Shown in pieces: positions 1 to 47,790 of a DNA stretch of 64,000 nucleotides. The DNA is from Dioscorea cayenensis subsp. rotundata (Eukaryota > Streptophyta > Magnoliopsida > Dioscoreales > Dioscoreaceae), in the NCBI RefSeq assembly GCF_009730915.1, contig NC_052489.1:26591916-26655915 (forward strand), read 5' to 3'. Numbering within the stretch: the first letter of the stretch is position 1; every line of letters starts with the position of its first letter. Under the pieces are notes generated by a model. It had not been told where the DNA came from, did no database searches, and worked only from the letters and a program-made list of their open reading frames with translations. A program made the translations under genes and the position numbers.

Positions 1-2167
1 GCACAAGAAATCCTACTTTGATACGACACCTCCTAACACTGAAAAATCATCCAGAGTATCTGGTGTGAAGACAAGGTCATCTATGAATTCATCTTTATTC
101 AAACATCATCCAGAAAAGAAAGTCACTGGACGCCAAAGGGAAGCAATTTTTAATGAAGCTGGGTTAGCTGATGCTGTTCACGATGACTCTATAGTGGCCA
201 CTAGTGATAGGGCAAATAATACAGAAGCAACATTAGGAATGCAAGATGAGGTTTCTATTTGCCATACAAAAGATGGAGGAGAGTGTTCCAAATCAGCGCA
301 CACACCCAAAGGAAAAGTTTCACTGTCTGCCCTGAATTGTACATCACCACTAAAAGATGCAGATGCAGTTTCCCCTGTTTGTATGGCTCAAGACCCTTCA
401 AGAATCTCAAGCAAGAAAGGATTCTCAATGTTATCACTTACCAGAGAGCTTACCAGATTAGATGCCACTTCATCAACCCCAAGCCAGATCTCGAAACATT
501 CACGTAGAAGAAAAGATATGGCCAGTGTTCATGTCTTGTTCAGCCATCATTTGGATGGGGATATAATTAAACAGCAAAAGAAGGTTGCTGATTTTTATGG
601 TTTTATTTACCCTCAAGATTTAAATTAAAATTTTCTAATTAATAATTACATGATCTGTTCTTATGTTGGTTTTATTAACTAGATCTTGGCACGCTTGGGG
701 GCTCACTTGGCATCCTCTATGTCAGATGCAACACACTTTGTCACGGATAAGTTTGTACGTACAAGGAACATGCTTGAAGCAATAGCTCTGGGTAAACCTG
801 TGGTGACCTATATGTGGCTTGAAAGTTGTGGACAGGCAAGCTGTTTTATTGACGAGAAAAATTATATATTGAGGGATTTTAAAAAGGAAAAAGAAATTGG
901 CTTCATCATGCCTGTCTCTTTGGCGCGTTCATGCCAAAGCCCACTCTTGCAGGTATTTATCAGTTGCTTGATGCATCTACGTAGATTATAGGTAGGAGCA
1001 TTTTTTACTATGACATTGCTGATAACTCTCTATTTTTTCTAGGGGAAAAGAGTGTTTATAACACCAAATGTAAAACCTAGCCGAGAAGTTGTTGCAAGCT
1101 TGGTTAAAGCAGCTCAAGGCCTGGTATTGTTCGATGCAATATTTTAGACTACATAGCATAAAACTTTTAATTGCCTTTTCTGCACTTTGTGCTTGATTTT
1201 TATGTTCTTACAAATTTCTAGGTAGAATGTTGTTGCTGTTAGTTGTGTTTGTTTTTCCAGTTGGTAGGTTTGCTAAATTTATATCCTCATTAGTCATGTT
1301 TTCAGCACTTAGTTAAAATCATCAGTAGGTGTCATTGTGTTGGTGTTTATTTTAAATTTGTTTATTCCCATAACTTGTGTGTTGATGCTATTGGTTTTGC
1401 TATTCCGCTACTTCAATTTGCTTCTAGCTCAAATATTTTTGTTCAAGTTCTCATGGTCAGTCTCTTAATTATTACAGTTATGCTCTATAGTTTTAGATTT
1501 TGTGAAATCTTCCAAAGAAGAATTTGTGATTTAATGAAAGTCAACATGAATTCTTGGCTTAAAATCCGGCAATGCATTTTTTTATCAGAAGATTGTTGAT
1601 GTTACTTCAAGTTGTATATTTCCCCATTCACAGTAGCTTTAATATAGGAAACCTTTTGATGACATTTGAATCTATTTTTTTTTTTCTTGCATAGCTTCAA
1701 ACACTCGATCAGTTCTAGTTTACTTCACGCCTATATTCATGCCTAACAATCCCATATTTTAAGTGTAGCCAATAGAGAGGATCGGGAGAAACACGATAAA
1801 GGATGACAAACTACTAGATGATCTCTTGGTCCTCTCCTGTGAAGAAGATTACCCGACGTGCATACCTTTACTTGAAAAAGGTAATTACCACCTTATTCTT
1901 TAACTACAAAACCAATTATATATATATAACCCCAGATGCCAAATCAAACAGTCGTTGTCTTCTAAACTTAATGCAGGAATGGAAGTTTTCAGCTCAGAAC
2001 TAGTACTGAATGGCATAGTAATTCAGAAGCTGGAGTATGAAAGGTTGGTAGTTTTAACAAATTCATCAGATCAGACTGAACTTCTCTTTTTAGAGTCTAA
2101 GAGGACACGGTCTACAGTGTGGTTAAGATCTGGCTCACAGTTCATCCCTGTAACCAAATGTTCATGA
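1..2167 (+). CDS. BRCT-domain DNA-repair protein, 3' part (5' end outside window)
   Basis: Exons read as 1-583, 683-952, 1043-1123, 1769-1880 and 1977-2167, joined in frame across GT-AG introns. The first exon is open from the window edge and encodes a Ser/Thr/Lys-rich, probably disordered region. It ends in a BRCT beta strand (SVHVLFSHHLDGD) that continues in exon 2 as ILARLGAHLASSMSDATHFV. Exon 2 also carries LEAIALGKPVVTYMWLESC, the typical tryptophan-bearing BRCT helix. Exons 3-5 form the second BRCT unit (GKRVFITPNVKPS, then PIERI, then SSELVLNGIVIQKLEYE) and end RTRSTVWLRSG before TGA at 2165-2167. A C-terminal BRCT pair of this kind (PAXIP1/MDC1-like) binds phosphopeptides in chromatin repair. 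I recall the Arabidopsis relative as At4g03130, whose neighbour At4g03115 is a mitochondrial carrier like the next host gene here. The last exon may hide another splice near 2045-2095. Confidence 0.85.
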
Positions 2168-2231
2168 TATGTTGTAAGCTCAATCCCCTCAATCCCCTGC
2201 CTGTTTTTGCCTTACCTTTTAAACTCCTCTA

Positions 2232-2232
<1 letters not shown>

Positions 2233-2276
<44 letters not shown>
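2233..2276. repeat. (CTAT)n microsatellite
   Basis: About eleven uninterrupted CTAT units lie 65 bp after the BRCT-gene stop codon, probably in its 3' UTR or just beyond. Confidence 0.95.
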
Positions 2277-2329
2277 GTGTTGTGTTTTTTTCTTCATGTT
2301 TATTTATGTAAAATATATATACATATAAT

Positions 2330-3777
2330 ACAAGGCAAACCAGAAGAATCAAGTTGTTTGTTTGAGTAGGATGTCTTGTTTGCAATCAATGGACACTAAT
2401 CTTAAAGTCTGGCATGTGTATTGACCGAGGATTCTTGTTGGTTTATTGTAGGGTTTTAGTTAATTAATTAATATTGAAATGATAGAAGGCATGGTAGGTA
2501 AATAAACGGAGTGGTGGGAAATAGACTAGTTAAGTCACGTTTCCATGAGGTTTTCATTTGTAATTGCAAGTGTGATTTATGAGGAGTTGGGGAGATCGAA
2601 GTGGCATCTCCATTATTTTTGGTCTTCAATTTTGGTTGAAGAAACAAGGTGTGGTTCAAGAAAATAAATGAGATGTAAATGTAATCATCATGAAGGTTTT
2701 CAATAATTTTATAATTTTTTTTTTTATGTAATTAACCAATGGTGTTTTGGTCTATTAATATTAAACTTTTTATATTGGGTATTTATATTAGGGAGAATTT
2801 AAAATTAAACTTCAAAACTTAGGTAAAACAAAAATGTGTTGTTAATTTTGCAATTATGTTTCATGCACTCGTTGGTGATTTGTTTTTAAATGGGGGAGGG
2901 GTGTTTGTTGTTCATTTGTCTAAAAAAAATTTTATGTAATTATGTGTATGAAATATTGTAAATGTTTCCCAAAAGTAATTATATTTACATATATTTTATA
3001 AATTTTAAAATTTTTACATATATGAATATTAGTAAATTATTTTTATATTGATTAAAAAAATCAGTTAAAATAGTTAATTATTTTAAAATTATAAAAAATT
3101 ATCCCAATTTTTTAAAATTAGCCTTATTTAAAAGTTTATTAAAATTCAATTAATTTCTTTTTATTTTAATTATAACTTTTATTAGTTCTTTTCAAATTGT
3201 GCCAATTGAAAAAAATTATTTAATACTTTATAAATTTTGTAAATAGAGTCAATAGACAGACGACACATAATAAGGTTGGAGGGAGTAGCATTTCAAACAT
3301 AAGTCTTAAATATTCATTTTATTTTTATTTTTATTTTTTTCACTTCTATGAAATCCAAAAATTTAATGTTGCCTTTTGCTTTCTTTTCCCCACGTAAATA
3401 ATATGATTACATGCAAACATTATTATTAATTTTCTTTTAGAGATTTTTAAAGAGTTTATATGCAAATATGGATATATACAAATTTTTAATTTTATAAAAT
3501 ACAAGTAAATAATTTCCTAACAACAACAATTATAATAAGAGTTTTTTATTTGATTGGAATTGAAACTTTTGCACTTTAATTAAAATTAACGGAAGCATCA
3601 TTCCATCATATTCCAGTAAATAATATCCACGTAAATGAGAACGATTTTTTTTTTTTTACAAAGTAAATGATAACTTTTCATTATTGGTAAAAATATATAA
3701 TTTTAATTTTGAAAATATTCATTGAAATTGACATTAAATTCAAAATATATTTTCATTAATTATAATAATTTATTAGT
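2330..3777. other. AT-rich spacer, no gene seen
   Basis: This stretch is dominated by A/T runs and has no convincing open frame, splice structure or terminal repeats. A polyadenylation region for the BRCT gene is probably in its first few hundred bases, but I cannot point to a single signal. Confidence 0.7.
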
Positions 3778-4524
3778 GGAAATTGCCAAAAAAACCCTTT
3801 AAGTTTGTAAAAATTGCAAAAAGCAGACTTTAGTTTTTGCGATCCCCAAAACCCCTCCTTTTTAAAAGTCTATGTTTTTTTCAAACCCCCAAACCCGCAT
3901 AGCGGATGTGAGCGGAGTGAGTTTCAAATTTTTTTGGACGAAAATGCCCTTGCATGGGGGAGTCGTGGTGCTGACCCATCTCGGCGATTTGAGAGGAAGT
4001 GGGGGTTTTTCAGTAGGAAGCTAACCAGAGAGGCAATTTATTGGAGCCGTTTAATTGCTTTTTCTCAACTCACGTCTTGACTTTTTCCATTTCGAGTCGT
4101 CTCGAAGTTGTCTCTACTGCTGAAAGCCTCTGTAATTGGCATTTCATCGACTTTTCCCTTTCCACGCAGTATCTCGAAGGAGAAGTCCCCATGTAACTAG
4201 TTGGCATTTCATCGATTCTGCAATCTAAGGTATTGAGTATGGTTTTTATGTTAAGCTGTTACATTACAAAGAAAGATTTTTCGGTTTTGTTTTGTGCTCT
4301 GTTTTTGTTGGAAGATATTGAAGTCTGCGAGGGGATTTCTCATCTGGGGTTTTTGTTAGTCTGCGAGGGAGATTTCTCGACTAGGGTTTTGTTTTGTTTT
4401 GCGTTTTCAGTATGTATACACTATCGAAAATAGTTTTTCGATTGTTATGATTTTAGTGTAATATTTATAATGTACATTTCCGTTTCGTTTGATATGGTTG
4501 CGATTTTACTAAAATGAGGTTGAC

Positions 4525-4680
4525 GTTTAAGAAATGAGATGTTACAGTTTTAACATTTGTTGTCCCTGTTTAAATATTCTCGTCTCTGTTTAACAAAATG
4601 GGTCTCTGTTTAACATTTTATATCTACGTTTAATAAGCGAGAGTTCTACGGTTTAAAACCTTATATTTCCGCTTAAACTT
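4525..4680 (+). repeat. GTTTAA array 1 (20-23-bp period)
   Basis: GTTTAA or near variants occur at 4525, 4546, 4568, 4588, 4608, 4628, 4651 and 4671. Three adjacent units share the longer form CTCTGTTTAA or CCTGTTTAA. The array lies in the presumed intron 4230-4771 upstream of the PMD-like exon. Confidence 0.85.
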
Positions 4681-4800
4681 TTTGTCAATCTGCATGTTGA
4701 ATGTGTTGTTATTATCGCGAGGCTTGTGATTATGGCGGTCAACCTAGTTAATGGGCGATGCTATTTGACAGCGGTTGTGGAGACTTTTAGGCTGAATTGA

Positions 4801-5536
4801 AAGATAACATGACTCCTCGACACTGGGAGATTATTCGAAGGACATCGTTTGCAGCGTTCACTGAGCTGGAAGCTATATACCAAGAGAGGGCCCTTCTTGA
4901 TTCTCTTTTGCAAAGATGCGATGGTTGCGCAATAAATTAAGGATCGGGGAAAAGCCCTGCTGAGTTTCGAGACCTCGAGATGTGGCCCTCGTTCTTGAGT
5001 GCTGCGTTGCGATGGCGGCGCAGTGGTCTTCGGAAGAAAAAAACCCGGTCGCGTTCGAAGGGCGGTATCTATCAAAGACCTACGAGAGCACGAAAGACTC
5101 CATCAAGAGCACTCACGGTGCAGACTTGTTCGACGGAGGGAGAAGAAGATAATTTTGTCAAACTCGATGGTGTACCTCATGGGACGGTCCTTTTTCCCAA
5201 ATACATCATGCTCGGTTCGAGCTGGATCGTTAATTACGTCGATGATCTACCGACGTGGGGCGATACGCGTGGGCGCGAGCGGCGCTAAGTGGCTTATGGA
5301 GGATATTCCACGACCGTCCTCGAGTGCAAGATAGATCTGTCGGGGAAGAAGACAAACACATGAGTACATTAAGGGTTTGCTCGGTCGGCTTAACGCGTCG
5401 GTTTTCTACGTGGCAAGACGAGGGAAGAAAGTCCGTTTCGGCAAGATCCCAAAGATCTTTGCTACTCTTGTGAAAGTACTTACGGGAGCAAGCGACGGTG
5501 AGAAACGAAAGCTTATCATCGCTCGATGGAAAAGAG
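4801..5536 (+). pseudogene. Plant-mobile-domain / DUF1985-like cargo gene fragment of the MULE
   Basis: The frame starting at ATG 4809 reads MTPRHWEIIRRTSFAAFTEL and then continues through ERALLDSLLQRCDG. After a stop and frame change it continues RDVALVLECCVAMAAQW. A further shift gives FVKLDGVPHGTVLFPKYIML and VNYVDDLPTW, while a neighbouring frame reads YLMGRSFFPNTSCS and YAWARAALSGLWR. These pieces match, in order, the hallmarks of plant mobile/DUF1985 domains. Those hallmarks are a leading LL-RW/C segment, F-x-x-x-DVAL-xLGL, an LLG-x-xFP strand, a DDL element and a YxWGxxAxxxLxR helix. At least three frame breaks are needed to read the domain. The upstream intron (about 4230-4771) and downstream intron (5537-5773) have good GT-AG borders, so this was once a spliced gene of the element. 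Confidence 0.65.
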
Positions 5537-5555
5537 GTAATAAATCATGGACGAT

Positions 5556-5725
5556 GTTTAACATAAGTCTTTAATGTTTAAACATTTTATTTAGCGTTTA
5601 ACTTTAGTATTTACCGTTTAAAACTTATTCATACTAGTTTAAATATTTTGTTCTCCGTTTAATTATATTCTATAACGTTTAAATATATAAACACTCTGTT
5701 TAAATATAGTTTTTATAGTTTAAAA
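5556..5725 (+). repeat. GTTTAA array 2 (20-21-bp period)
   Basis: GTTTAA cores start at 5556, 5576, 5596, 5616, 5637, 5657, 5677, 5698 and 5718: nine units with almost constant spacing. The sequence between cores is AT-rich and not conserved. The array lies inside the intron 5537-5773. Confidence 0.92.
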
Positions 5726-5773
5726 TGAATGATTTCGCTGAAATTGTTTGGTTTACATATGTTAGTTTCTGAG

Positions 5774-6930
5774 ATGGTTCAGCGAATCTTTGAAGAAGAA
5801 ATATTTGTTGGGGCCAACCGGCGGATGGATGCCGTTGCTCCGGGAACCACTTGCTCGAAGGCGGGATGAGAGGGCGACCTACTTCCGACCCACCGTGCGC
5901 ACGCATTCCTCAGCCGGAGAAGCCCTCCTACCACGGCGGTTCTGCAACAACCCCTCTACCACGACAGCAGCGAGTCCCCGATTATGGCGTGCCCCGAGCC
6001 ATGGCGGCCCCTCCGGCCGTGGCGGCCCCACGGTGACATTAGGCGAAGATGTCGCGCTACTCTTATCTGAGGGCATGCGGGATATTGATGACCGAGTTTC
6101 CTCGGCATGCGCTCGTGTTGAGGCGCTGGAAGGGCGTTCGCGACCATTTGCGCCGTCCCTCGAAAGAATTGAAGCACCGAGGACGAGCGAGGCGTCGAAT
6201 TTTGACGACGACGACATCATCGGGGAAGGTCGTTCAAGGTGGCCACATTCGAAGAGACTTGCGAAAAAGAGTAGAACAATCTGCCTCTGTCTCCACCGCG
6301 GTGACGATGAAGCAGATGTGACACCATCGGTGGCGATCTTTGTTGTTGAGAAGGACATCGTAGATGATGTGGCGTTCTTGCATTGTTGAGAAGGTTGTTG
6401 ACTCTCTTCTCGATGAAATCCTCGACCGGTGGGCCATTTGCTCGAGATAGCGGCGTCAAAGATGGACACAATCCACGAAGATCGAGAACAGAGTTAAGGG
6501 TGTGTCTCCCGATGATGTTGTTGTCATGGCCACGGTTGAGAAGATCGTCGAATCCGTTCTTGGTGGCAGACGATCTGCGACCAAGCGAGGACACGATCCC
6601 ACCACAACAAGAACCATGTAAGGATGTATGCGCGGTTGATCTTTGTCGCCGATCGTCCCGCATCGAGCCGGACACAATCCCACGACAAGAACAACCATGT
6701 AAGGATGTGTCTGCGGGTTGATCTTTGTCGCCATCGTCCCGCGTCGAAGGAAGATCTTCTGCGAAGACCTCGACCGAGCAACGAGGAGATGATCGAGGCC
6801 GATCAAAAATTGGACCCGGATGGCTCGGAAAGCTTTTATTCGAAGAAGAAGAAATGGGTTGGCTGAGTCGTCTTAACAAATATGAGCGAGGAGTTGATGA
6901 GGATCTTCCTCAGTCGCTCTATGGACGCGA
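5774..6930 (+). pseudogene. Linker exon of the MULE cargo gene (basic/acidic, unrecognised)
   Basis: The exon lies between two introns with clear borders (ends 5773; starts 6931 with GTAAGTG). The beginning reads MVQRIFEEEIFVGANRRMDA and then the frames break up. It is CG-rich, with longish open stretches in several frames on both strands, and I recognise no domain. Two features stand out. A VEK-x-V-x-S/D-x-L peptide recurs in different frames near 6340, 6385 and 6530. A tandem duplication (6590-6670 and 6671-6748, about 80 bp) encodes DTIPxQ-EPCKDVxA. Its position between the PMD-like and Ulp1 parts corresponds to the variable linker of Ulp1-like MULE proteins. I assign no function. Confidence 0.45.
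6590..6748 (+). repeat. Two-copy tandem repeat, period about 81 bp, in the cargo linker
   Basis: Copies start at 6590 (GACACGATCCCACCACAACA) and 6671 (GACACAATCCCACGACAAGA). They share the following CCATGTAAGGATGT, GTTGATCTTTGTCGCC and ATCGTCCCGC blocks with few differences. A third, weaker start is seen at about 6468. Confidence 0.8.
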
Positions 6931-6954
6931 GTAAGTGTAAAGTTTTTATGATAT

Positions 6955-7127
6955 TGTTTAAAGGTTTTATTATAGTGTTTAACTATTACCTAATAGTGTT
7001 TAATACCTTTTATGTTATCATTTAATTTGTCTACTTAACGTTTAATTATATATAATATCATGTAACGATTGATAATATCATTTAAATATTTTCTGATATG
7101 GTCTTATTATATCTCATTATCGTTTAA
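6955..7127 (+). repeat. GTTTAA array 3 (about 21-bp period)
   Basis: Cores or one-base variants occur near 6955, 6977, 6998, 7018, 7040, 7061, 7080 and 7122. The array lies inside the intron 6931-7133, which has GTAAGTG and CTCAG borders. Confidence 0.85.
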
Positions 7128-7133
7128 CCTCAG

Positions 7134-7803
7134 ACATCGTGTGGAAGAATGACCCATGCTTAGCACCACCGCGACAAATTATACATGCTTGAGGGGAAGG
7201 AGATGGTCACTGATGATGTAATGGGACGCTTTCGTATGCATAATACAAAAGTGGGTGAGCGAAAGAACCATATCCTTACTGAAGCGCGCTCATCACCGGA
7301 CCAGCTTATCTGTTTATGTCAAAGCGGGATGGCACTATGACACAATTATGACTATGATCGGGGGATGTTGTGTACAAGCTGCATGAAAGTTCAAATTGTC
7401 ATCCTCCCGATAATCATGAATGGCCACTTCCATGTATGTCAGTCACAGACAATGATAAAGCAAGAATACGAGGCATTATTCTTCGTGTCAGGAGTGCGAT
7501 AAGGGACGCGTTGGACATGGTAAGTTCTTTAATTATGTCCGATTAATATCTGTGTGGTATTTAAGTCGGTATTCTAATCTCGACTTGCATATCTCGACAG
7601 CGGAATCTATTCGACATTTGTGTCGATATGGAGTTCATGAGTCTGCATGACGAAAGTACCCACTCGTGCATGACATAGAAACCCCACGCCAAAAACAAGG
7701 AAGCGTCGATTGCGCCGTCTACGTCATGCGGTTTATCGAGCAATTACTTTGGGGTGAGAAATTACGGCTACCGCAGACGAGGGCGTTCCTTACCTCGAGT
7801 TAA
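7134..7803 (+). pseudogene. C48 / Ulp1-like cysteine protease domain, MULE cargo
   Basis: This is the catalytic part of a SUMO-protease-like (C48) peptidase. The region around 7400-7440 reads VILPIIMNGHFHVC, matching the P-x-x-x-x-x-HWH catalytic-histidine strand with Trp replaced by Phe. After a short intron (about 7520-7600) comes RQKQGSVDCAVYVMRFIEQL. This carries the oxyanion glutamine and the nucleophilic cysteine codon TGC at 7711-7713; the glycine that usually follows that cysteine is alanine. The frame ends at a TAA near 7802. The intervening aspartate strand is lost in frame breaks, so an active enzyme is unlikely. In Kaonashi-like MULEs such domains are transduplicated host SUMO proteases kept over long times; their role in the element is not settled. 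Confidence 0.75.
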
Positions 7804-8094
7804 GGTATGTTACCCGTACTTAAGGAGGGAGGCGGTGGGCGTCCATGACAAAGGGGTCGTCGCAGCGGGTTAAATTTTTGTTTTTGAAGAACATGTCTCA
7901 GTATATCCGAATGTCGATTTTGTTTTCGAATGTAAATCGGACAAATTCAATTCATTGTTTTCGTGTTCGAAGAGCATGACTTGTATATCTTAATGTAAAT
8001 TTTGTTTGTTTTGAATTGTAAAGCAGGTTAAATTCCATTCAGTTTCATTTCATTATTTAATTTACGTTCTAATTGTGTACATTTCACTTTCATT

Positions 8095-8182
8095 GTTTAA
8101 ATATACTATATATCGTTTAAGTATCAGTTGAAATATTTCAAATTACAGTGTATCCGTTTAAAATAACAATGTCTTTGTTTAA
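8095..8182 (+). repeat. GTTTAA array 4 (20-bp period)
   Basis: Cores are at 8095, 8115, 8156 and 8176, with a degenerate unit near 8136. The array lies between the end of the Ulp1 frame and the convergent end of the transposase, in plus orientation like the Ulp1 gene. Confidence 0.8.
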
Positions 8183-8769
8183 ATATGGAAAGTTGCCCAT
8201 CAATACACAATGTTTCCCTGTCATCGTCGGCTTATTTACAATGCCTAGTTGGCGACAGTTTCATTGTAAGATCGTCGATTGTGACCGGATCCATGGCGGC
8301 CAGGGTCTGCAATGTAACTTCGCGGCCATCAAGCGCTTGCGACTCGATCCTCTTTCGTCTAGGCCGCCTAGGGTCGCCTTCTCGTCACGGCGATCGCATG
8401 AGCGAAGCTCGCGATATCCGTCTCGAAGGGACCGTCGTCGTCGAGTATGGGGAATATAGCTTCCTTATGCGCCAGGTTTGTAATTGTCGACGGTGAAGTA
8501 CCCAGCTAATAAATCGATGTCGTTGGTGTCATACTGCGTTATTCTTCTGCTAGCGTGTTTCGCGAGGATACCATAAACTTGCCACTTTCGAGCATGAACA
8601 GAGTTACGATGGCGAGATCTACGGAGTTCTTCTGGCTGGTCGATCACTCAGTAGCGATCATCGACACTATGACCAACCACGAAGATTTCGGGTCGTCCTC
8701 AACAATGATCTCTACCTTGAATGTATGTACAGGGCATAAGTAGGGTCTCCCATTTGTTCAGCTTGCTCA

Positions 8770-8828
8770 CGCGGTTTACATAACATGCGCATCAACTTGA
8801 ACACGGCAAATAAGGTTAAACAAAAGGC
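8770..8828. repeat. Diverged direct repeat R1, copy a (partner at 11610-11668)
   Basis: The 20-bp string ATAACATGCGCATCAACTTG followed by AACACG occurs at about 8780 and again at about 11619. In both copies it is followed within 25 bp by AGGTTAAACAAA, the first unit of an inverted GTTTAA array. Bases before it (GCGGTT) are shared too. Confidence 0.85.
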
Positions 8829-8950
8829 GATTGATGGTTAAATAATTAGTAAACATGTTTGAACATTATTGTAAATATTTAAAGCGTAAGGATTAATATT
8901 TAAAGTCGAGATAAGTGTAATTAAACAAAGATTGAGAATGTTTAAAGGGT
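8814..8950 (-). repeat. GTTTAA array 5, inverted (about 21-bp period)
   Basis: The reverse-complement core (TTAAAC or TTTAAAG) occurs near 8816, 8838, 8857, 8878, 8899, 8920 and 8941. It sits in the gap between the SWIM part and the catalytic part of the minus-strand transposase. It is therefore in sense orientation for that gene. Confidence 0.8.
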
Positions 8951-10317
8951 GACACTAAATGTTAAGTGAAACCAACATTCATGAGACCTTATGGAGTCGA
9001 CCATTTTTCATCGCGGTAAATGGCGTGCTTCCTTGATCCAAGCATTGAGCGACTCGCGACGTTTGAATACATCTCACCCCAACGATCACCTCCCGAGCGA
9101 GATAATTCGACCCGAGTGTGCCATATCCGATTTATTAATCAACCCGGTGATGAGCTTGGGTGATGTGGTATGCGATTCATTCAGCGGTATCGTCGAAATC
9201 TTTAGCCGTGGATGCCCACGCAATCGCGGAAAGCATATAGACCGAGCACTCCTCCTCAATGACTTCCCAAGTCGACATTGGCTTTTCGTAAAATTGGCCT
9301 CCAAATGTCGAAGGCGGTATGCGTGTGGCGACGAAGGGAAGACTCTCGCAATTCGCTCACGAGGCCCTTGGACTTGTCCGACACGAAGGTAATTATCTCA
9401 TGATAATCTCCATCCTCGTATAAGGCATCGCCTAACTTAGATATGAACCAAGTCCAATTGGCATCGGTCTCGTTGTCGACTATACCAAAGGCGACGTGGA
9501 AAAAACCATTGTTTCCATCTTTCCCCTGTGGCGCCCGATGAGTGTACCTCGATATTTTTTTCGGGAGGTGTGTACCATCGAGAAACAGCAGCGGCCTGCA
9601 AGCCCTCTTGAATCCCACATTACACGCTCTGAACGAAAAGAATGCACGTTTAAAATGATCACCGTCTCTTTCCACGATCGCTTAGCTGCTAGGGATTTGT
9701 CTCGACCACCTTATCCACATACCAAAAGCAAAGCGATCGTGGTCGTAGATGTCACTACCGTCGAGGACCACCCGGGCATGCTCTTTTTCCCAACCAAGCA
9801 CGCTTGTATGGTATGTGGACACCATGTTCCCGAACATGTCCTTACGAATGTCGATGGCCTTGTCTGAGGGGCGGTCCTTGAGCTTACGAATCACTCGTGC
9901 GCTAACCCGTTTTTGGACGCTTTTCGGATGCGGCGCTGAACCTATGCCACCACCGCAAGTGTGTGACGGGTTGATTGTCTTGATTACGAAAGTTTTTTTG
10001 TTATACTCTTTTGATGCGTGAAGGCGCTGATGACAACCATCGGCGCATTCCACGATCGCCCGATGTTTTTCGATTGTTATGAATTTGAAGTCAAAATTTC
10101 TTTTTGATTGCATGATTTCGAATTACATCCCACGAAATGTTCGACACCGTCTAAGCGTTGTCCAATATCGATAGTGACGCTGAGAATGATCGGCGAGGAA
10201 GGAAGACATCCACGCCGTCGAGGGTCGCCATGGGGATGAGCTGGAGCACTCGCAGAATCGAATTCACTATGACACTTCGATCGAATGAAAAGATCAATAT
10301 GTTAGCGGAGAATATAA

Positions 10318-10435
10318 TGTTTAAGTGATAATGACAATATTTAAAGCGTTAAATTAAATACTTAAGCGGGTTAACTAATAACGTAAGCGACTAGTACAGA
10401 TATTTTTAACCCAGTTGACGGACATATTTAAACAC
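10318..10435 (-). repeat. GTTTAA array 6, inverted
   Basis: TTAAG(C) or TTAAAC cores occur near 10320, 10340, 10361, 10381, 10404 and 10427. The array lies just upstream (minus-strand sense) of the transposase DNA-binding exon. It is more diverged than arrays 2 and 7. Confidence 0.65.
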
Positions 10436-10489
10436 TAATGGCCCCGGACAAGCTGGAACAATTAAAAGAGAAGGAACTTCTGACGAGTA

Positions 10490-10690
10490 AAACTCGTTTT
10501 CGTTAGAGATTCGACAATGGCACATTTTTACGTCTCGACGACAAGATCAACTCTGACACATTTGAAGATGGAGTGCACGTGACACATCCATTTGGAAGTC
10601 GACATCGTTTTCTATTAGGCGAAAGCCGTTTTATATCCATTTGGTGTGATGAACTTAACCCCGACGAGAGAAACTTGAGACCCCATCGCT
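10490..10690. repeat. Diverged direct repeat R2, copy a (partner at 12608-12780)
   Basis: The blocks ACTCGTTTT, ATGGCAC, TTGAAGATG, AGTGCAC, TTTTCTA and CGGTTTATAT (with small changes) occur in the same order and near-equal spacing here and at 12608-12780. Copy a has an open plus-strand frame reading LRLDDKINSDTFEDGVHVTH and onward to a TAG near 10731. Copy b is interrupted in that frame. The minus-strand frame is also partly alike, so the coding strand is unclear. Confidence 0.65.
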
Positions 10691-11088
10691 CGTATATCTC
10701 ACTAACACCAACTCCCAAGAAGTGCGAGTAGTGAACATTAGCACTCTTCCCTCCCCGTTGAATCTAGCAATACCACAAAAAAACTCTCCATAATATATCG
10801 GCCGAAAACCAAATCGTACAATTCAAATGAAATGAAGAACAAAAATAAGCCGAAGAAGAAGAAGAAGATGGAAACAACAAACAACAGTCAGATAGACAAA
10901 CAAGAAAAGTGCATATATATATATATATATATCACTGTCGCGATAAAGACCAAAAAGTGCATAGAGGTTAGACTAGACGTGATGTGATTGGGCGGTATTT
11001 TTTTCCCTCCATCGGAAGGCGCAAAAAGGAAAAAAATATGCCATTTGTCGCGATGAAGGCGTATTATCATCGCTCGACATGAGTATCT

Positions 11089-11385
11089 GTTTAACTCGTC
11101 GAGTTTTTTTATGTTTAAAGCGGATACATAGTGTTTAACATAACGATTACAGGTTTAAATAAAAGTCTATATCATGTAAATAATACAGTAAAAGCGTTTA
11201 AATATAGTGACTTCATGTTTAAAATATATGTTATTGTTTAAATTGAATGCTTTCATTTGACATCGCGTTGAAGATGGGTACCTCTGGGTCATCTGATTAA
11301 ACATCTTTCACGTATTTTCTTAAACACCGTTGTCATTGTTTAAAAAAGTATGATCGTATTGTTTAACTTTTTTTCTATTGTTTAC
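11089..11385 (+). repeat. GTTTAA array 7 (20-22-bp period)
   Basis: Cores are at 11089, 11113, 11133, 11153, 11175 (variant), 11196, 11217 and 11236. A second cluster has cores at 11338, 11361 and 11380. This array is in plus orientation although it lies in the minus-strand transposase half, so it is the exception to the orientation rule. Confidence 0.85.
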
Positions 11386-11609
11386 AATGAGCGTTCTTTT
11401 TGTTTCCCACATTGTTTTTACTAGGTCTCTATTTAAATTTCGAAGTTCACATTCAAATAAAAACATTCGTTTACGATATTTACAAAAACATTTACAAAAA
11501 CATTTTACAACATTTACAACATTTACAACATTTACAAGGACTTTTGGACACTCACGACTCGACCCTCAGTATAGCGAAACAAGTGTCATGTACGTTCGAA
11601 TGCTCGCAG

Positions 11610-11668
11610 CGGTTGCATAACATGCGCATCAACTTGAACACGCATGACATACAAAAGGTTAAACAAAC
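11610..11668. repeat. Diverged direct repeat R1, copy b
   Basis: This is the second copy of the segment at 8770-8828. It lies just below the 11774-12163 exon, as copy a lies below the transposase catalytic exon. Confidence 0.85.
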
Positions 11669-11773
11669 ACATTCATGAAAAAGCGACTATTAATCGATGT
11701 ATCGTGAGTGGGACTTAGCGAAGATCTTGGTAGTTAAACCCGAGCGACATGGTTGTATGTCGGCGTAATGTTC

Positions 11774-12163
11774 TTAAGCGGTAACAAAAAGTCTCGAGTG
11801 ATAAATATCAACCCGTCTTAAAGGATGTTTCAGACCTCCTCCTCTAGAGAATCCTCCCCTGATCACGTAATACGTGAAAACTTTCTTTTTACCCAAGTCG
11901 AAAAGCTCGCATAATTGCTTCCCGTCGTCCACTGTTGGAGAATCCTCCGCATTCGAGACGATTATCGCGAGCATTTTCGGCTCAGGCGAAAAAGATAATT
12001 TAACTTGTTGCGTGATTACGAGTGATTGATTCTCGAGATAAGGAAGGAGGTTCACGAAACATCCTTTCGAGATAAGTGGTTGTCCGTGGGAAGAGGAGGA
12101 AGAGGAGGAGGAGGATGATGAGGGGACGGCGGCGAGTGGTTGTCCGTGGGAAGGGTTCTTCAC
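11774..12163 (-). pseudogene. Possible 5' exon of the MULE transposase (poly-Ser, PB1-like)
   Basis: An intact 129-codon frame begins MKNPSHGQPLAAVPS, runs through a polyserine tract, repeats the HGQPL peptide, and continues VKLSFSPEPKMLAIIVSNAE and LCELFDLGKKKVFTYYVIRG. The pattern of hydrophobic strand, P-x-x-x-LxxIxxxxD, short helix and V-x-x-YVIR resembles the PB1-like domain at the N-terminus of many plant MULE transposases, but the match is weak. It lies upstream of the transposase core on the same strand, separated by a probable intron with another array. It could equally be a captured host fragment. Confidence 0.4.
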
Positions 12164-12411
12164 AGTTATTTATGGTGTGAAGTCCACAGCGGGTTGACTC
12201 TTCATGTCAGAAAAAAATCAAGCCTTACGATGAGGCCCGAGCATTGGTGATTACAGCGAGCGGGTGTTCGGGATATTTATGTTCAGAGTCGTAGAAATTA
12301 ATCGAGTCATTAATTCTTATCGCGGGATCTACTCTTTTGCTACACCCTGCGTGCCACCCTGCGACAATTCGGATCAAGCGAAAAAGATCACCGTTTCTGT
12401 GAGACTTTGAG

Positions 12412-12605
12412 AATTTAAGCGTTAATATGAAAAGTTATACATGTAAAGATAATGTTAAGCGGAGATGACAAGTATTAAGCGGATATGATGATTATTAAAC
12501 ATATTAGTAATATATTTAAGCGGATAATAACAAATAGTTAAACATTATTTAAAAATATACAAGCGAGATAACAATAAGCGAGAAAGAACTTTAAAAGCGA
12601 AATGA
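12412..12605 (-). repeat. GTTTAA array 8, inverted
   Basis: TTAAGCG or TTAAAC cores occur near 12415, 12455, 12475, 12495, 12516 and 12538, with weaker AAGCG units to 12600. It lies upstream of the 11774-12163 exon, in minus-strand sense orientation. Confidence 0.75.
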
Positions 12606-12607
12606 AC

Positions 12608-12780
12608 TCGTTTTTCAAGCGGAGGCAACGATGGCACGTGCTTCTGCATCGACAGATAAAATCGAATCTGATTTCGTTTTGAAGATGAAGTGCACTTGAC
12701 CAATCAGGTGGAAATCAACTTCATTTTCTAGTTGGAGACCCGGTTTATATATTTTCGGGTATGATAAAACTTCACCCGAG
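12608..12780. repeat. Diverged direct repeat R2, copy b
   Basis: This is the partner of 10490-10690. Each R2 copy flanks an inverted GTTTAA array (8 here, 6 at copy a) on its high-coordinate side. Confidence 0.65.
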
Positions 12781-13182
12781 ACTACCACAAAATGAGTGCC
12801 ATAATAAACTCCTGTTTGAATGGTCAGTGATAGCTGACGAAGAGATTCTCAGCGTATTCATGGCAAGCGAGGCGAAGTCGAACAACTCAAATGAGGAGAA
12901 ATGAGGAGAACAACGAGATGTAATGCAACTCACTGCAGTTTGTCTATCGAGAAAGCCGTGAAAGCCCTGAAAAAAGTTGAGCATAATGATTTGGTGCTTT
13001 CCTTTTCACCAGTTTTCAGGCAAAAATGGGATTTATGACGTGGGCCGTTTGAAGTGAACGGTATGGGATAATAGGGAAGTTAAACACTAACGGAAGGGCT
13101 ACGGGGTGTGTAAAAGTAGGATGGGGTTTTTGGGAAGTTTTGAAAATTACGATGGATGAACAGTAATTTTCCCTAATAATAA

Positions 13183-13332: not shown

Positions 13333-16300
13333 ATGGCGGCGACCTCTACCTCTCCAAGCTCGGCGTTTCTAGAGCGGTTCAGGAATCCAAAGAACCAGGG
13401 ATCCGATGGCCGGCTTTTGTACGCCTTCCAGTACTTCGCCACCAATGCCACCGCTGTCACGGTGTCCGTTTCGCTCACCCATCCTTTAGGTATTGTTCTT
13501 TCTTTGCTTTGCTTTGCTTTGTTTGTCCAATCTTCTTTTTGGTGATCCGAGGTTCACATTGTCTGAATGGAAACCGTGATCTAATTTATTGGAGAATGTG
13601 TTTGATATCACGAGTTTGTGTCTTTTTTCCTTCATAATTTTCTAAAAAAAATTTCAAATTTAATTGGAACTGCAGATGTTCTCAAAATTAGGCTTCAAAT
13701 GCAGCGAGCGGGTCAGCGAGGTCCTTTGATTGGAATGGTATCTGATACAATTTTCTTGTATTTTGGAAAAAAAAAATCAAATTGTTTTGAAATTTCCACA
13801 ACCTGCAGGGAAAGCTTTGTGGAAAAATAGTGAAAATTGAAGGACCTGTGGCACTGTGTTCAGGGCTTGCACCTGCGATGGTTAGGTCTCTTCTTTGTGG
13901 GGGCCTTCGATTGAGCTTATATGAGCCTTGCAAGTCTTTCGCTGATTCTGTTTTTGGTTCAGCTAACATCTTTGTTAAACTTGTATCTGGGACCATCTCT
14001 GGTGCCATTGCAACAGCAGTCACCAATCCTGTAGATGTTCTTAAGGTAGTGGAAGCCTATATAAAGCTTTAATGATTACCATTCCAGTTTTTCTCACAGT
14101 TGTGTTTCTTGAAACAGGTACGTATGCAAATGAACATGAATCCTCAAAGGGGACCTGTTGGGGAGCTACGGCAAATTATATCGGAGGAGGGATTAAAAGG
14201 GCTTTGGAAGGGAGTTGGTACTTCAATGACCAGAGCTGGAGCTCTCACAGCATCATATGATGAATCCAAGCAGGTCTATCTTCTGGCTTTGCTATATAGG
14301 GTTTCTTCATTCTGATCGTCAGTTACTATTACCTTATCATCCAGGCATTGCTCAGATGGACACCTCTTGAAGAAGGTTTTCTTTTGCATCTCATGTAAAA
14401 AGAGTATAATTCTTATTGATACAAGTCCTGCCATGAGAGAGGTGAGAATGTTTCAAGAAAAAAACTAATATTATGCTGTGCTTATCTGAAGATCAAGTTG
14501 CATAGCTGGAGCTGTTGGGACTCTCGTAACGGGGCCTATGGACATCGTTAAAACGCGTCTTATGTTACAACAAGAATCTAAAGGCGGCATAATTTATAGG
14601 AATTCATTTCACTGTGCATACCAGGTTTGGATCCAATCTAATAACTTTTTTGCAAAGAGAATCTTTTAGATTAATGCAACATGAATGGCTTTTCGCAATT
14701 TCTAGGAATTGTTGTTAGATCATTTTGATTAGCACCAAACATCTTTTGTTTCCACTAATTAGACTATGAACTGTCATTGTAATGTCTTAGATAAGTCAAT
14801 ATATATATATATATATATATTTACTTTTGAAAGAAATGCTATTCTTAACTTCACTGAAAAGAGAGACGTAGATGTCCCTCGGGGGTACCCCTTGATAAGC
14901 ATTTGGCAATTCAAATAATGGCAAAAACTATTCATAAGCATTATAGCATTCTTGATTGGTTAAGTAGCCTCAGAAAACCAACATCAATCCAATTGAATCT
15001 GGTTGTCTTCTTCCTTGCTTGTGTATAGCTATAATCATTATTGGTTTGGCACTAATTAGTGGAGCTGAATTTCCATTCTTTCATTATAAATGTTATGATC
15101 TTAATTTCTATCAATTTTACATTGTTCAGATGATACTATATGCAATACCAATTTTTTTCTAGGAAAAATGACCATATGGACCTTGGAATTTTTCATAGTA
15201 ACCAGAAGGTCCATATGAATTTTCGAGTGGCCTACAGGATCCTGTTTCTTCTCTAGGTTACCATTGAAATCCTGACAGACATCATTAGAAATAGTGCTTA
15301 CTTTGTGGTTGGGGGGATTTTTTTAATAAGTTCATTCTTCAACTTGGCCCTCATCTTCTTGCATAATCAAGTTTGTGCTTTGGTTGTTGGACAACCTTAT
15401 AAATGTTTGGTGTGGTCAAAGGCAAGGAGAAGGCCATGTTGTGAACTTCACCATACTTTTATCCAGTGTTATAAAGCGAGAAAGGCGCTCGCCTAGGTGC
15501 TTTCGAGCGGCGAGACCTTAATGTCTCAACACCCTTTGGACAAGGCGCCTTCAATGAGGCGAGCCTAGGCCGGTGCTTTTTGCCGGCGCCCAGGGCATTA
15601 AAAAGGTGCTCTGTCTTATTTTTTTCTTGATATAGACCTTTTTATTTAATGCTTTCAATTAGTGTTTATTGGAATTCTAAAAAGGCACATTTACTAATAA
15701 GGTATGAAATAAATTTAGGGGAGGAAAATTTGGTGGTTTTAAAAAAAGGCACGCTTGTTAATAAATAAGGAAATAAATTTAGAGGAGAAAAAAATTAAAA
15801 AGTTTTAAATGCATAGTTGCTATTTTTTTAAAAACTAATGATTAAATTAAGGAATTAACTAATCAATTAGAGATAATTGAAGAGGTTGCAAAAATTAGCA
15901 CTTGCCATAAAAAGTCTGAACAGAATAGCATACAACATCAAAAAGAGATGAAGATGAAACAAGGTTGGTGTTTTGGTGGAAGCATGTGACTTTAATTATT
16001 CTAAAAATTATATGTAATATATATATATTAACTAGTGCTTTACTTTGTTCGGGCGAGCGCCTTTCGTGGCGCCTCTTGCCTCGGGCAATATAATGTCTTA
16101 GCGCCTTAAGAGCGCCTAGCGCTTTTAATTACACTGCTTTTATCGTGGCAGTCAGTTTTAGATAGCATTTGCAACATGTGAGGGCTTCAGTTGAGTCCAT
16201 AAAGATAAAGTACATCAACCCTGATGAGTGAAAGATTTCATATTTGCTTAGAAATGATGAGGGTTTCTAGATGATATTGCACATCCACCATTTGTACAAG

Positions 16301-36132: not shown

Positions 36133-36383
36133 TATGTATGTATGTATTATTGTATCCACATACACACATATATGTATACAGAAATATTGTATACATATAC
36201 TTGTGTTTATTTTGTTTATTATTTTTTTTAAATGAATGATTGTTAGTGATGTATATATGTATGTATTCTTGTATCCACATACACACATACATGTATACAG
36301 AAATATTGTATACATATACTTGTGTTTATTTTGTTTATTATTATTTTTTATTTGATGTTATTGAATGAATGATTGTTAGTGAT
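36133..36383. repeat. Two-copy tandem repeat, period 119 bp
   Basis: GTATCCACATACACACATA at 36152 recurs at 36271. Each is preceded by TATGTATGTATT and followed by GTATACAGAAATATTGTATA, ACTTGTGTTTATTTTG and GAATGATTGTTAGTGATGT. Identity exceeds 90%. It begins 24 bp after the small acidic ORF and would be in its 3' UTR. Confidence 0.9.
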
Positions 36384-40342: not shown

Positions 40343-40799
40343 ATATTCAATGTATATAAATACAGCAGTATACTTAATTATAATTAATTAGATCCCTCAC
40401 ACTTTAATTCATATATAGGTGCGCACACTATTGGAGTTGCCCACTGTTTCTTCTTCAGTAACAGACTCTACCGATCCATCGCTTAACGCAACCTATGCGG
40501 CAACCTTGAAAACTCTATGCCAGAACCAGTCTGATACAACTACTACAGTTGCCATGGATCCTGGTGATAACTTGACATTTGACAACCATTACTTTGTGAT
40601 TTTGAAGCAAAACCAAGGTTTGTTCCAGTCAGATGCTGCACTGCTTACAGACGGAAGCGCAAGCAACCTGGTGGATAAGTTACTTGACTCCGATAACTTC
40701 TTCAAAGCCTTCAAGAATTCAATCAAGAGAATGGGACAGATAGAAGTTCTCACTGGAACTAACGGAGTTATCAGGAAGAAATGCAGTGTTGTGAATTAA
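39528..40799 (+). pseudogene. Class III peroxidase copy A, frameshifted in exon 4
   Basis: Exons 39528-39743, 39829-40020, 40107-40272 and 40419-40799 have the classic three-intron layout of secretory peroxidases. A signal peptide (MKYFNFIVFMVIVLTFASSV, then KGQ) leads into QDFYKTTCPNAEQIV, the distal site [17 protein letters not shown], and [20 protein letters not shown]. The proximal heme histidine is in GAHTIGVAHC. In exon 4, 24 bases present in copy B between AGACTCT and CCGATCC (47438-47461) are replaced by one base. The net loss of 23 shifts the frame to a TAA at 40484-40486, removing about the last 100 residues, including cysteines of the C-terminal disulfides. The downstream sequence otherwise stays open in the old frame, so the break is recent. 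Confidence 0.88.
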
Positions 40800-41437: not shown

Positions 41438-42069
41438 ATGGCGTCCGGTAGTAGTAACCCACTACATATGTGTTAGACTTCAGTGCCGGTTTTTGACGGA
41501 GAAGAGTACCAACACTGGAGTATTATGATGGAAACACTATTTAGGTCTCATGATCTCTGGGATCTGGTTGAAATGGTTACTCTAAAGAAGATGATAAAGC
41601 TAAGGTGAAAGAAAACAAGAAGAGAGATGCTCATGCTCTGTTTCTCATCCAACAGGCTTTGCATCGTCCTTTGTTTTCACATATTGCTGCTCTTAAGACC
41701 TCCAAAGGCACTTGGGATACTCTAAAGAGGGAGTTTCAGGGAACCACCAAAGTCATGGCAGTAAAGCTACAAGCATTAAGACAGTCTTTTGAGAATCTAC
41801 GTATCAAGGACAATGAAGAAGTGCATAACTACATCTCCAGAGTGACAGACCTAGCGAATCAAATACGGTGCTTGGGAGACACTCTGTCAGAATCCATGGT
41901 GGTGGGTAAAGTGATGAGAAGCTTAGGACCTAAGTTCAATCATGTGGTGGTGGTTGCAATTGATGAATTGAAAGACTTAACCAAACTCACCATGGCTGAG
42001 CTAAGCGGATCCTTGCGAGCTCAAGAAGCTCGACTTAAAAACCAAGCAGCACCTAAGAGCTGGAAAACG
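41438..42069 (+). pseudogene. Copia gag (UBN2-type) remnant
   Basis: The first ATG (41438) gives MASGSSNPLHMC and a stop. The usual next segment (VFDGEEYQHWS) is readable in another frame, so the N-terminus is broken. The longer frame then reads HALFLIQQALHRPLFSHIAA, WDTLKREFQGTTKVMAVKLQ, LRQSFENLRIKDNEEVHNYI and VMRSLGPKFNHVVVVAIDEL, typical of the Copia gag/UBN2 domain. The zinc knuckle is lost at the deletion joint near 42070. Confidence 0.85.
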
Positions 42070-42073
42070 TCTC

Positions 42074-42635
42074 TTGAGATATCTATGTGGAACAAAGAGC
42101 CTTGGACTATGGTATTCAAGTAGCATGGAATGCAGGTTGCAAGGATATTCAGACAGCGATTGGGGAGGTTGCACTGATGATAGGAAGAGCACATCCGGGA
42201 TGATCTTTAACCTTGGAACTGGGGGCTGTATCGTGGGGCTCAAGGAAGCAAGACATCACAGCTCTATCGACAACGGAGGCAAAATATGTGGTAGTGACAA
42301 CGGCAGCATGTCAAGCTGTTTGGCTGCGAAAGGTGCTGGAAGATTGCGGAATGAAACAAAAGGAGGCTACGGTAGTATGTTGCGACAACAAGTCCATAAT
42401 CACAATTGCCAAAAACCTGGCGCTGCATGGAAGAATGAAACATATCGATATTCGCTTCCATTTCATACGTGATTTGATCTCAAGTGGGGTAATAGAACTG
42501 AAGCACTGTAATACTGAGAATCAGTTAGCTGATATTTTTACTAAGCCTCTGGAAGTTCAGAAACACAACTACATAAGAGCAATGCTTGGTATCTGTGATT
42601 TTGAATCAAGGGAAGGTGTTAAAAGAGTGATTTAA
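42074..42635 (+). pseudogene. Copia RNase H (C-terminal pol) remnant
   Basis: The frame starts in LGLWYSSS, continues YSDSDWGGCTDDRKSTSGMI (first catalytic Asp region), then changes frame by one base near 42216 into AVSWGSRKQDITALSTTEAK. It goes on to VVCCDNKSIITIAKN, HGRMKHIDIRFHFIRDLI and NQLADIFTKPL. This is the ordinary C-terminal end of Copia pol. It follows the gag remnant directly, which shows the large internal deletion. Confidence 0.9.

Positions 42636-46503: not shown

Positions 46504-47790
<1,287 letters not shown>

Follow-up and report, generated by a model that had tools for sequence, protein, structure and literature searches.

We studied a stretch of 64,000 nucleotides (the window) of contig NC_052489.1 (31,611,005 bp) in the 584 Mb genome of Dioscorea cayenensis subsp. 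rotundata, the white Guinea yam, a monocot (Liliopsida). The window contains a Mutator-like element (MULE) of 9.4 kb at positions 3776..13173. The non-coding parts of this element hold eight arrays in which the hexamer GTTTAA, or a close variant, returns every 20-21 bp. This beat is genuine. We observed directly the core, its phase, strand and placement, as well as the gene content of the element, its copies and a non-autonomous carrier. By analogy, the arrays are fairly likely to be rows of binding sites for the VANC-type protein of the element itself (a plant mobile/DUF1985-like part followed by a Ulp1-like end), serving as targets of anti-silencing. We favor this reading because the layout of the motif, its placement and the gene content fit the Arabidopsis VANC system.

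The null model consisted of 1000 dinucleotide-preserving shuffles, done in blocks of 400 bp. Between 3778 and 13172, GTTTAA occurs 37 times versus a shuffled mean of 4.9 (maximum 13). The initial annotation, made from the letters alone, had proposed an excess of cores at 20-21 bp over such shuffles. It was borne out, with 18 pairs at this lag versus a mean of 0.010 (maximum 1). Its clearest example, nine GTTTAA cores in 5556-5718 with steps of 20,20,20,21,20,20,21,20, is exact. Outside the element there are no same-strand pairs of cores at 19-23 bp, among the 4 cores of 1-3775 and the 29 of 13174-64000.

Chains of cores were also scored per block and per strand, with 1000 shuffles each. Seven of the eight blocks (4525+, 5556+, 6955+, 8095+, 8814-, 11089+ and 12412-) were reached by 0/1000 shuffles. 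The 10318 block is marginal, reached by 7/1000 on the minus strand and 34/1000 on the plus strand. In a scan of 200-bp intervals starting at 13173 or later (1-3775 was excluded), none attained a score of 8. Blocks 4525, 5556, 8814 and 11089 pass the chain test on both strands, since TTTAAA is palindromic. Each array was assigned to the strand with the higher chain score. The reading of the blocks as GTTTAA is correct for five arrays on the plus strand, but 8814, 10318 and 12412 are read on the minus strand, and their cores are more degenerate. In the five plus arrays there are 33 GTTTAA versus 4 TTAAAC.

The arrays begin ~750 bp inside one end of the element and stop ~630 bp inside the other. 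Array 1 (4525..4676, plus, 8 sites) lies upstream of the coding region of the VANC-like gene. It is retained in 5/5 copies, plus the portion covered by locus L075. Array 2 (5556..5723, plus, 9 exact cores) occupies the first intron of this gene. The donor GT at 5537 is present in the window and in 6/6 aligned relatives, and 7-9 cores are retained in 6/6 of them. Array 3 (6956..7127, plus, 7 sites) falls in a later intron, at about 6932-7133. Its donor GTAAGT is shared by the window and the 4/4 copies that cover the site; those four do not retain the CTCAG acceptor seen in the window, and the array itself is lost in copy L072. Array 4 (8095..8182, plus) separates the 3' ends of two convergent genes, with 4 cores in the window and in 5/5 copies.

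On the minus strand, array 5 (8797..8947, 8 sites) lies in the transposase intron between 8987 and 8761. Array 6 (10341..10433, 4 degenerate sites, the marginal block) is between transposase exons 1 and 2. The exon gaps around these two arrays were delimited by tblastn of Dioscorea proteins. Array 7 (11089..11366, plus) lies upstream of the transposase gene and comprises a chain of 6 with additional cores. Finally, array 8 (12415..12543, minus, 7 sites) has many GCTTAA-type cores and stands beside a second coding piece of the minus strand. In 12405-12625 the C-type cores are commoner, with 4 TTAAGC versus 2 TTAAAC on the plus strand. Overall, the arrays present the layout of VANC targets, a short and dense motif in one orientation in the non-coding parts of the element.

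The placement of arrays within introns of a Ulp1-type MULE, as first annotated, is therefore supported for 5556, 6955, 8814 and the marginal 10318. All four are sense to their host gene, which would suit an element acting in the RNA, for example a signal for splicing or retention. However, arrays also stand upstream of the genes and between them, and a reader of RNA would not need a step of two DNA turns. Moreover, a non-autonomous element carries arrays without these genes. Such a role is hardly credible.

The best-fit period is 20.55 bp. Consecutive core steps concentrate at 20-23 and 40-43 bp, with none at 9-11 or 30-31, and a small group at 34-35 bp appears in loci selected by the transposase. 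We counted core triplets across the genome, with the backwards core as control. At 20-21 bp there are 5793 + 6057 = 11,850 triplets versus 7 + 9 = 16 in the control; this is not a count of arrays, as triplets inside one array overlap. The numbers fall to 27 + 31 = 58 at 18-19 bp (control 0 + 5 = 5) and 141 + 145 = 286 at 22-23 bp (control 8 + 5 = 13). At 30-31 bp they are at background, with 5 + 9 = 14 (control 6 + 1 = 7). Three turns share the DNA face yet do not exceed background, which makes the step a two-turn unit. It could come from the need of the protein, from the length of the duplicating unit, or both. The initial annotation suggested sites read on one DNA face. The two-turn step fits this idea, but spacing on the same face is not sufficient by itself, given the background level at 30-31 bp.

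A period close to twice the helical repeat, with an A/T-rich core, might also serve a chromatin or host factor, through rotational placing of nucleosomes or bending by in-phase TTTAA. Nevertheless, TTTAA alone is indifferent to the strand, while the five plus arrays show the asymmetry given above. The steps of 30-31 bp would be in phase too, and the rest of the window is free of arrays. We consider this explanation very improbable.

The GTTTAA core sits in a wider and weaker motif near TYWNYGTTTAAM. The position before the core (-1) is a pyrimidine (Y) at 27/31 sites of the window and 77/81 sites of other loci, versus 19/44 of the GTTTAA outside arrays. The picture of a fixed core with free spacers needs a correction here. 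The core is constant while the spacers drift, but the flanks are partly constrained. In array 2, the 9/9 units agree at all six columns of the core, and the 14 flanking columns have a mean identity of 0.40 (0.19-0.78) versus 0.34 from composition. At other loci the core and the step are common and the spacers differ, with a spacer identity between units of 0.13 to 0.66.

The more uniform of these arrays (up to 0.66) could be taken for a neutral minisatellite, a 20-21-bp unit multiplied by slippage and carried with the element with no reader, and the constraint on the core within the family is not significant (see below). Neutral decay would hit core and flanks alike. Array 2 shows otherwise: the identity of its flanks is close to that expected from composition, while the core is whole in every unit. 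Likewise, seven significant blocks on two strands have one common core. This makes a neutral origin improbable.

The ends of the element (GTGGAAATTGCC... and ...AGTAATTTTCCC) lie near the points where homology to six copies (L069-L074) runs out. The termini share only ~12 bp of imperfect similarity by eye (GTGGAAATTGCC and GGGAAAATTACT), so long terminal inverted repeats are absent, as in VANDAL or non-TIR MULEs. Target duplications of 9 bp, as expected of a MULE, were read by eye in the flanks of three of the four copies with both ends: TTTTTTTAA in L070 and L072, and TAAAAAAAT in L073. In L069 and in the element of the window they are not clear. The pattern of the 5' end has 1,245 genome occurrences at <=1 mismatch (control 0). 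The transposase stretch is matched at 89-100% identity by 40 genome places, with 40 of the 1724 candidates scored. The initial annotation expected related elements to keep the arrays, and five near full-length copies (L069, L070, L072-L074) do so wherever the alignment covers, save array 3 in L072.

The VANC-like gene is on the plus strand. Its first coding exon (4700..5536, start set by alignment with L075) is plant mobile domain/DUF1985-like and is broken in the window, where its pieces gave no Pfam hit. In the equivalent exon of L075, which is flanked by arrays on both sides, the plant mobile domain reaches 41.5 bits, above its cut-off of 34.9. The overlapping DUF1985 scores lower, with 33.7 bits on the open frame (cut-off 35.1), and rises to 36.7 bits in the genome search, which there continues across a stop. 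Among the three close proteins, the plant mobile domain is higher in P0117 and P0120, and DUF1985 in P0118. In the genome, DUF1985 matched 150 among 150 scored of 455 candidates, 127 of them over the cut-off. One such match lies ~4.1 kb from an 89%-identical transposase copy, on the opposite strand, the same arrangement as in the window. Searching proteins with the L075 domain exon gave 6 hits, which are uninformative as to host range. A sequence search of P0117 versus solved structures gave 0 matches. Its predicted structure (5-row alignment) had a mean predicted local distance difference test score (pLDDT) of 36 and was discarded.

Further along the coding region there is a tandem duplication of 81 bp (27 codons) at 6589..6747, plus strand. 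The Ulp1-like C-terminal part follows at 7134..7803 (plus), also broken in the window. Peptidase_C48 scores 15.9 bits in copy L070, under the cut-off of 20.7, and 24.0 bits in the relative L003, over it. The two pieces are 66% identical over 59 residues. The Ulp1 assignment comes from L003 and not from the L070 piece.

Convergent with this gene, a MURA/VANA-type transposase gene (8248..10786, minus) has three exons placed by homology to Dioscorea proteins: exon 1 at 10786-10534, exon 2 ending at 8987, with an open frame from ~10301 and homology from 10104, and exon 3 at 8761-8248, all minus. It is broken in the window. There, the MULE domain scores 32.0 bits (cut-off 27.6) and DBD_Tnp_Mut 24.8, just below its cut-off of 25. 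In copy L071 they reach 72.9 and 71.5 bits, as in a MULE transposase. The second coding piece of the minus strand (12615..12848) resembles exon 1. The region 10457-10665 matches the 12615..12848 region in L069-L072, with about 72-73% DNA identity. This piece is perhaps at the VANB position.

The initial annotation had pointed to the MuDR-type domain of the transposase as the reader of the core. The arrays would then be internal or subterminal sites of transposition. The family does encode this DNA-binding domain, and the non-autonomous element retains arrays along with its ends. Transposases usually bind at or close to the termini. In the autonomous copy, however, the arrays lie mid-element, at the distances from the ends given above, and several are in introns. 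The known precedent for intron arrays is VANC, and Arabidopsis VANC21 is described as binding such arrays by Hosaka et al. 2017 (PMC5735166). A VANC-type protein is thus the better candidate, and a reading by the transposase is unlikely.

Arrays are not confined to the autonomous family. Locus L062 holds a complete non-autonomous element of 1,731 bp (1157-2887) with ends like those of the autonomous family. It is bordered by a perfect 9-bp target duplication, TTAAAATAA on each side. One of its strands bears 26 cores and the opposite strand a single one, and arrays make up 32% of its length. No tblastn match to the three protein pieces of the window family was found in it. By eye, its arrays flank a GC-rich segment resembling captured host gene sequence, and the element is probably gene-capturing. 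Loci L054, L055 and L059-L061 contain pieces that resemble VANC, Ulp1 or the transposase, with 37-89% identity to the window family. Pieces of such identity in array loci indicate that several subfamilies share the GTTTAA core. A second Ulp1-bearing family (L001, L002, L004, L005 and L008) is free of GTTTAA arrays over the 3.5 kb seen. In a non-coding gap of these loci a repeat recurs at 60-61 and 120-121 bp, perhaps the motif array of another family.

Several observations weigh against the VANC-type reading. DUF1985 is below the cut-off in 5/5 matching open frames (L075, L061, P0117, P0118 and P0120), and our confidence is reduced because this holds in every single open frame. The plant mobile domain outscores DUF1985 in three of these five frames, where it is above its own cut-off. 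The search of Pfam with the frames resembling exon 1 in L072, L073 and L055 found nothing. In the window copy, both the transposase and the VANC-like gene are broken. The kinship with VANDAL elements is presumed from layout and gene content. Among 8 loci picked by Ulp1 and not by the motif, only L003 hints at arrays; the others show no GTTTAA arrays in the 3.1-3.5 kb seen. Finally, divergence was compared at A/T columns in 30 aligned sequences, all the loci taken from the transposase search (the window as L009, and 29 copies). It was lower in the core than in the spacer in 3/4 arrays, with 0.064 for core and 0.088 for spacer, a difference that is not significant (p = 0.155). With this p value, selection on the cores is not demonstrated within the family.

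Under the VANC-type reading, we infer the following mechanism. Each site centred on GTTTAA (about TYWNYGTTTAAM) would take up the VANC-like protein. A spacing of 20.5 bp, equal to two helical turns, would align the proteins on one DNA face and result in side-by-side binding, which stray single sites could not support. Once loaded, the arrays in introns and upstream regions might clear the element of its DNA methylation and of further silencing marks. Non-autonomous relatives with the same arrays would be freed of silencing likewise. The rows may grow by tandem duplication of the 20-21-bp unit, so that spacers drift while core, strand and phase stay.

The initial annotation knew of nothing of this kind. 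In fact, VANDAL MULEs with arrays of motifs in their introns and upstream were described in 2017 (PMC5735166). According to that work (Hosaka et al. 2017), VANC21 binds the 9-base motif YAGTATTAY, which is dense and in one orientation in non-coding VANDAL21 sequence, namely in the introns of VANB and VANC and in the region upstream of VANA. The same paper states that VANC proteins remove silencing, that their targets evolve as tandem repeats, that the variable regions of Arabidopsis VANCs often have tandem peptide motifs, and that VANC6 is associated with other motifs, AGTTGTCC/AGTTGTAC (PMC5735166). Later work agrees and adds that VANCs with a Ulp1 domain have the same action; it dates the capture of Ulp1 near the monocot-eudicot split (PMC10398659, PMC13317346). 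Ulp1-bearing MULEs include Kaonashi (KIU) of Arabidopsis and like elements in melon, rice and grapevine, and Kaonashi elements reportedly act as VANCs that lift the silencing of their own kind (PMC13317346).

The yam element resembles VANDAL21 (Hiun) and its VANC21 in being a MULE with a transposase and a second gene that is DUF1985-bearing in Arabidopsis and DUF1985-like in the yam, where DUF1985 is below the cut-off in open frames. Both have a dense motif of one orientation in introns and upstream, and, presumably in the yam too, a tandem repeat origin; the tandem peptides described for VANC have a counterpart in the 81-bp duplication of the yam. The core types of array 8 recall the C- and T-type motifs of VANDAL21. 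In contrast, the yam core is GTTTAA instead of YAGTATTAY, the host is a monocot, and the protein has a Ulp1-like end. The yam step is fixed at two turns, whereas the words "spacing" and "period" are absent from the main text of PMC5735166. VANDAL6 with VANC6 differs in its core, and the accessible text names no Ulp1 for it. Kaonashi is alike as a MULE carrying Ulp1, found in a monocot (rice) too. However, in the accessible text, a GTTTAA array with a two-turn period is not described for Kaonashi, nor are its monocot relatives described as having anti-silencing arrays (PMC13317346).

This kind of array is therefore already known, and helical periodicity has reportedly been described too. Sasaki et al. 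2022 reportedly found that motif sequence, density and helical periodicity decide the specificity of anti-silencing, and that non-autonomous elements participate. They reportedly put the origin of the system in eudicots, which the title names, whereas the yam is a monocot. Among the papers listed by our literature search, which covered few subscription titles, none dealt with GTTTAA-core arrays in Dioscorea or with anti-silencing arrays in monocots. Within the literature searched, several features look new: the monocot host, the core, the two-turn-only step, the number of copies and a small element of which one third is array.

A bolder proposal, which we hold as possible but doubtful, concerns anti-silencing beyond eudicots. 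The plant-mobile/DUF1985-Ulp1 protein of the yam would bind as a row on one face of GTTTAA sites with an obligatory two-turn step. Small gene-capturing elements, one-third array, would carry host sequence in a self-demethylating cassette. If true, VANC-type anti-silencing would extend to monocots with a new recognition motif and a very clean grammar, given 11,850 two-turn versus 14 three-turn triplets in one genome. Recognition of a whole transposon by one protein could be tested through simple spacing assays, and might provide a tool for targeted demethylation in monocots. The gene-capturing carriers would connect the duplication of genes by transposons with evasion of silencing.

Elsewhere in the window, a putative host gene (13333-14300) has the end of the element ~160 bp upstream. 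By its sequence motifs it may be a mitochondrial carrier gene. The open frames 40419-40799 and 47380-47790 are alike and presumably represent the ends of class III peroxidases. Between these two pieces, the open frames in 41572-42635 are, we assume, parts of a Copia-type retrotransposon. Finally, a tandem duplication of 119 bp, with units 95% alike, is present at 36133-36348.

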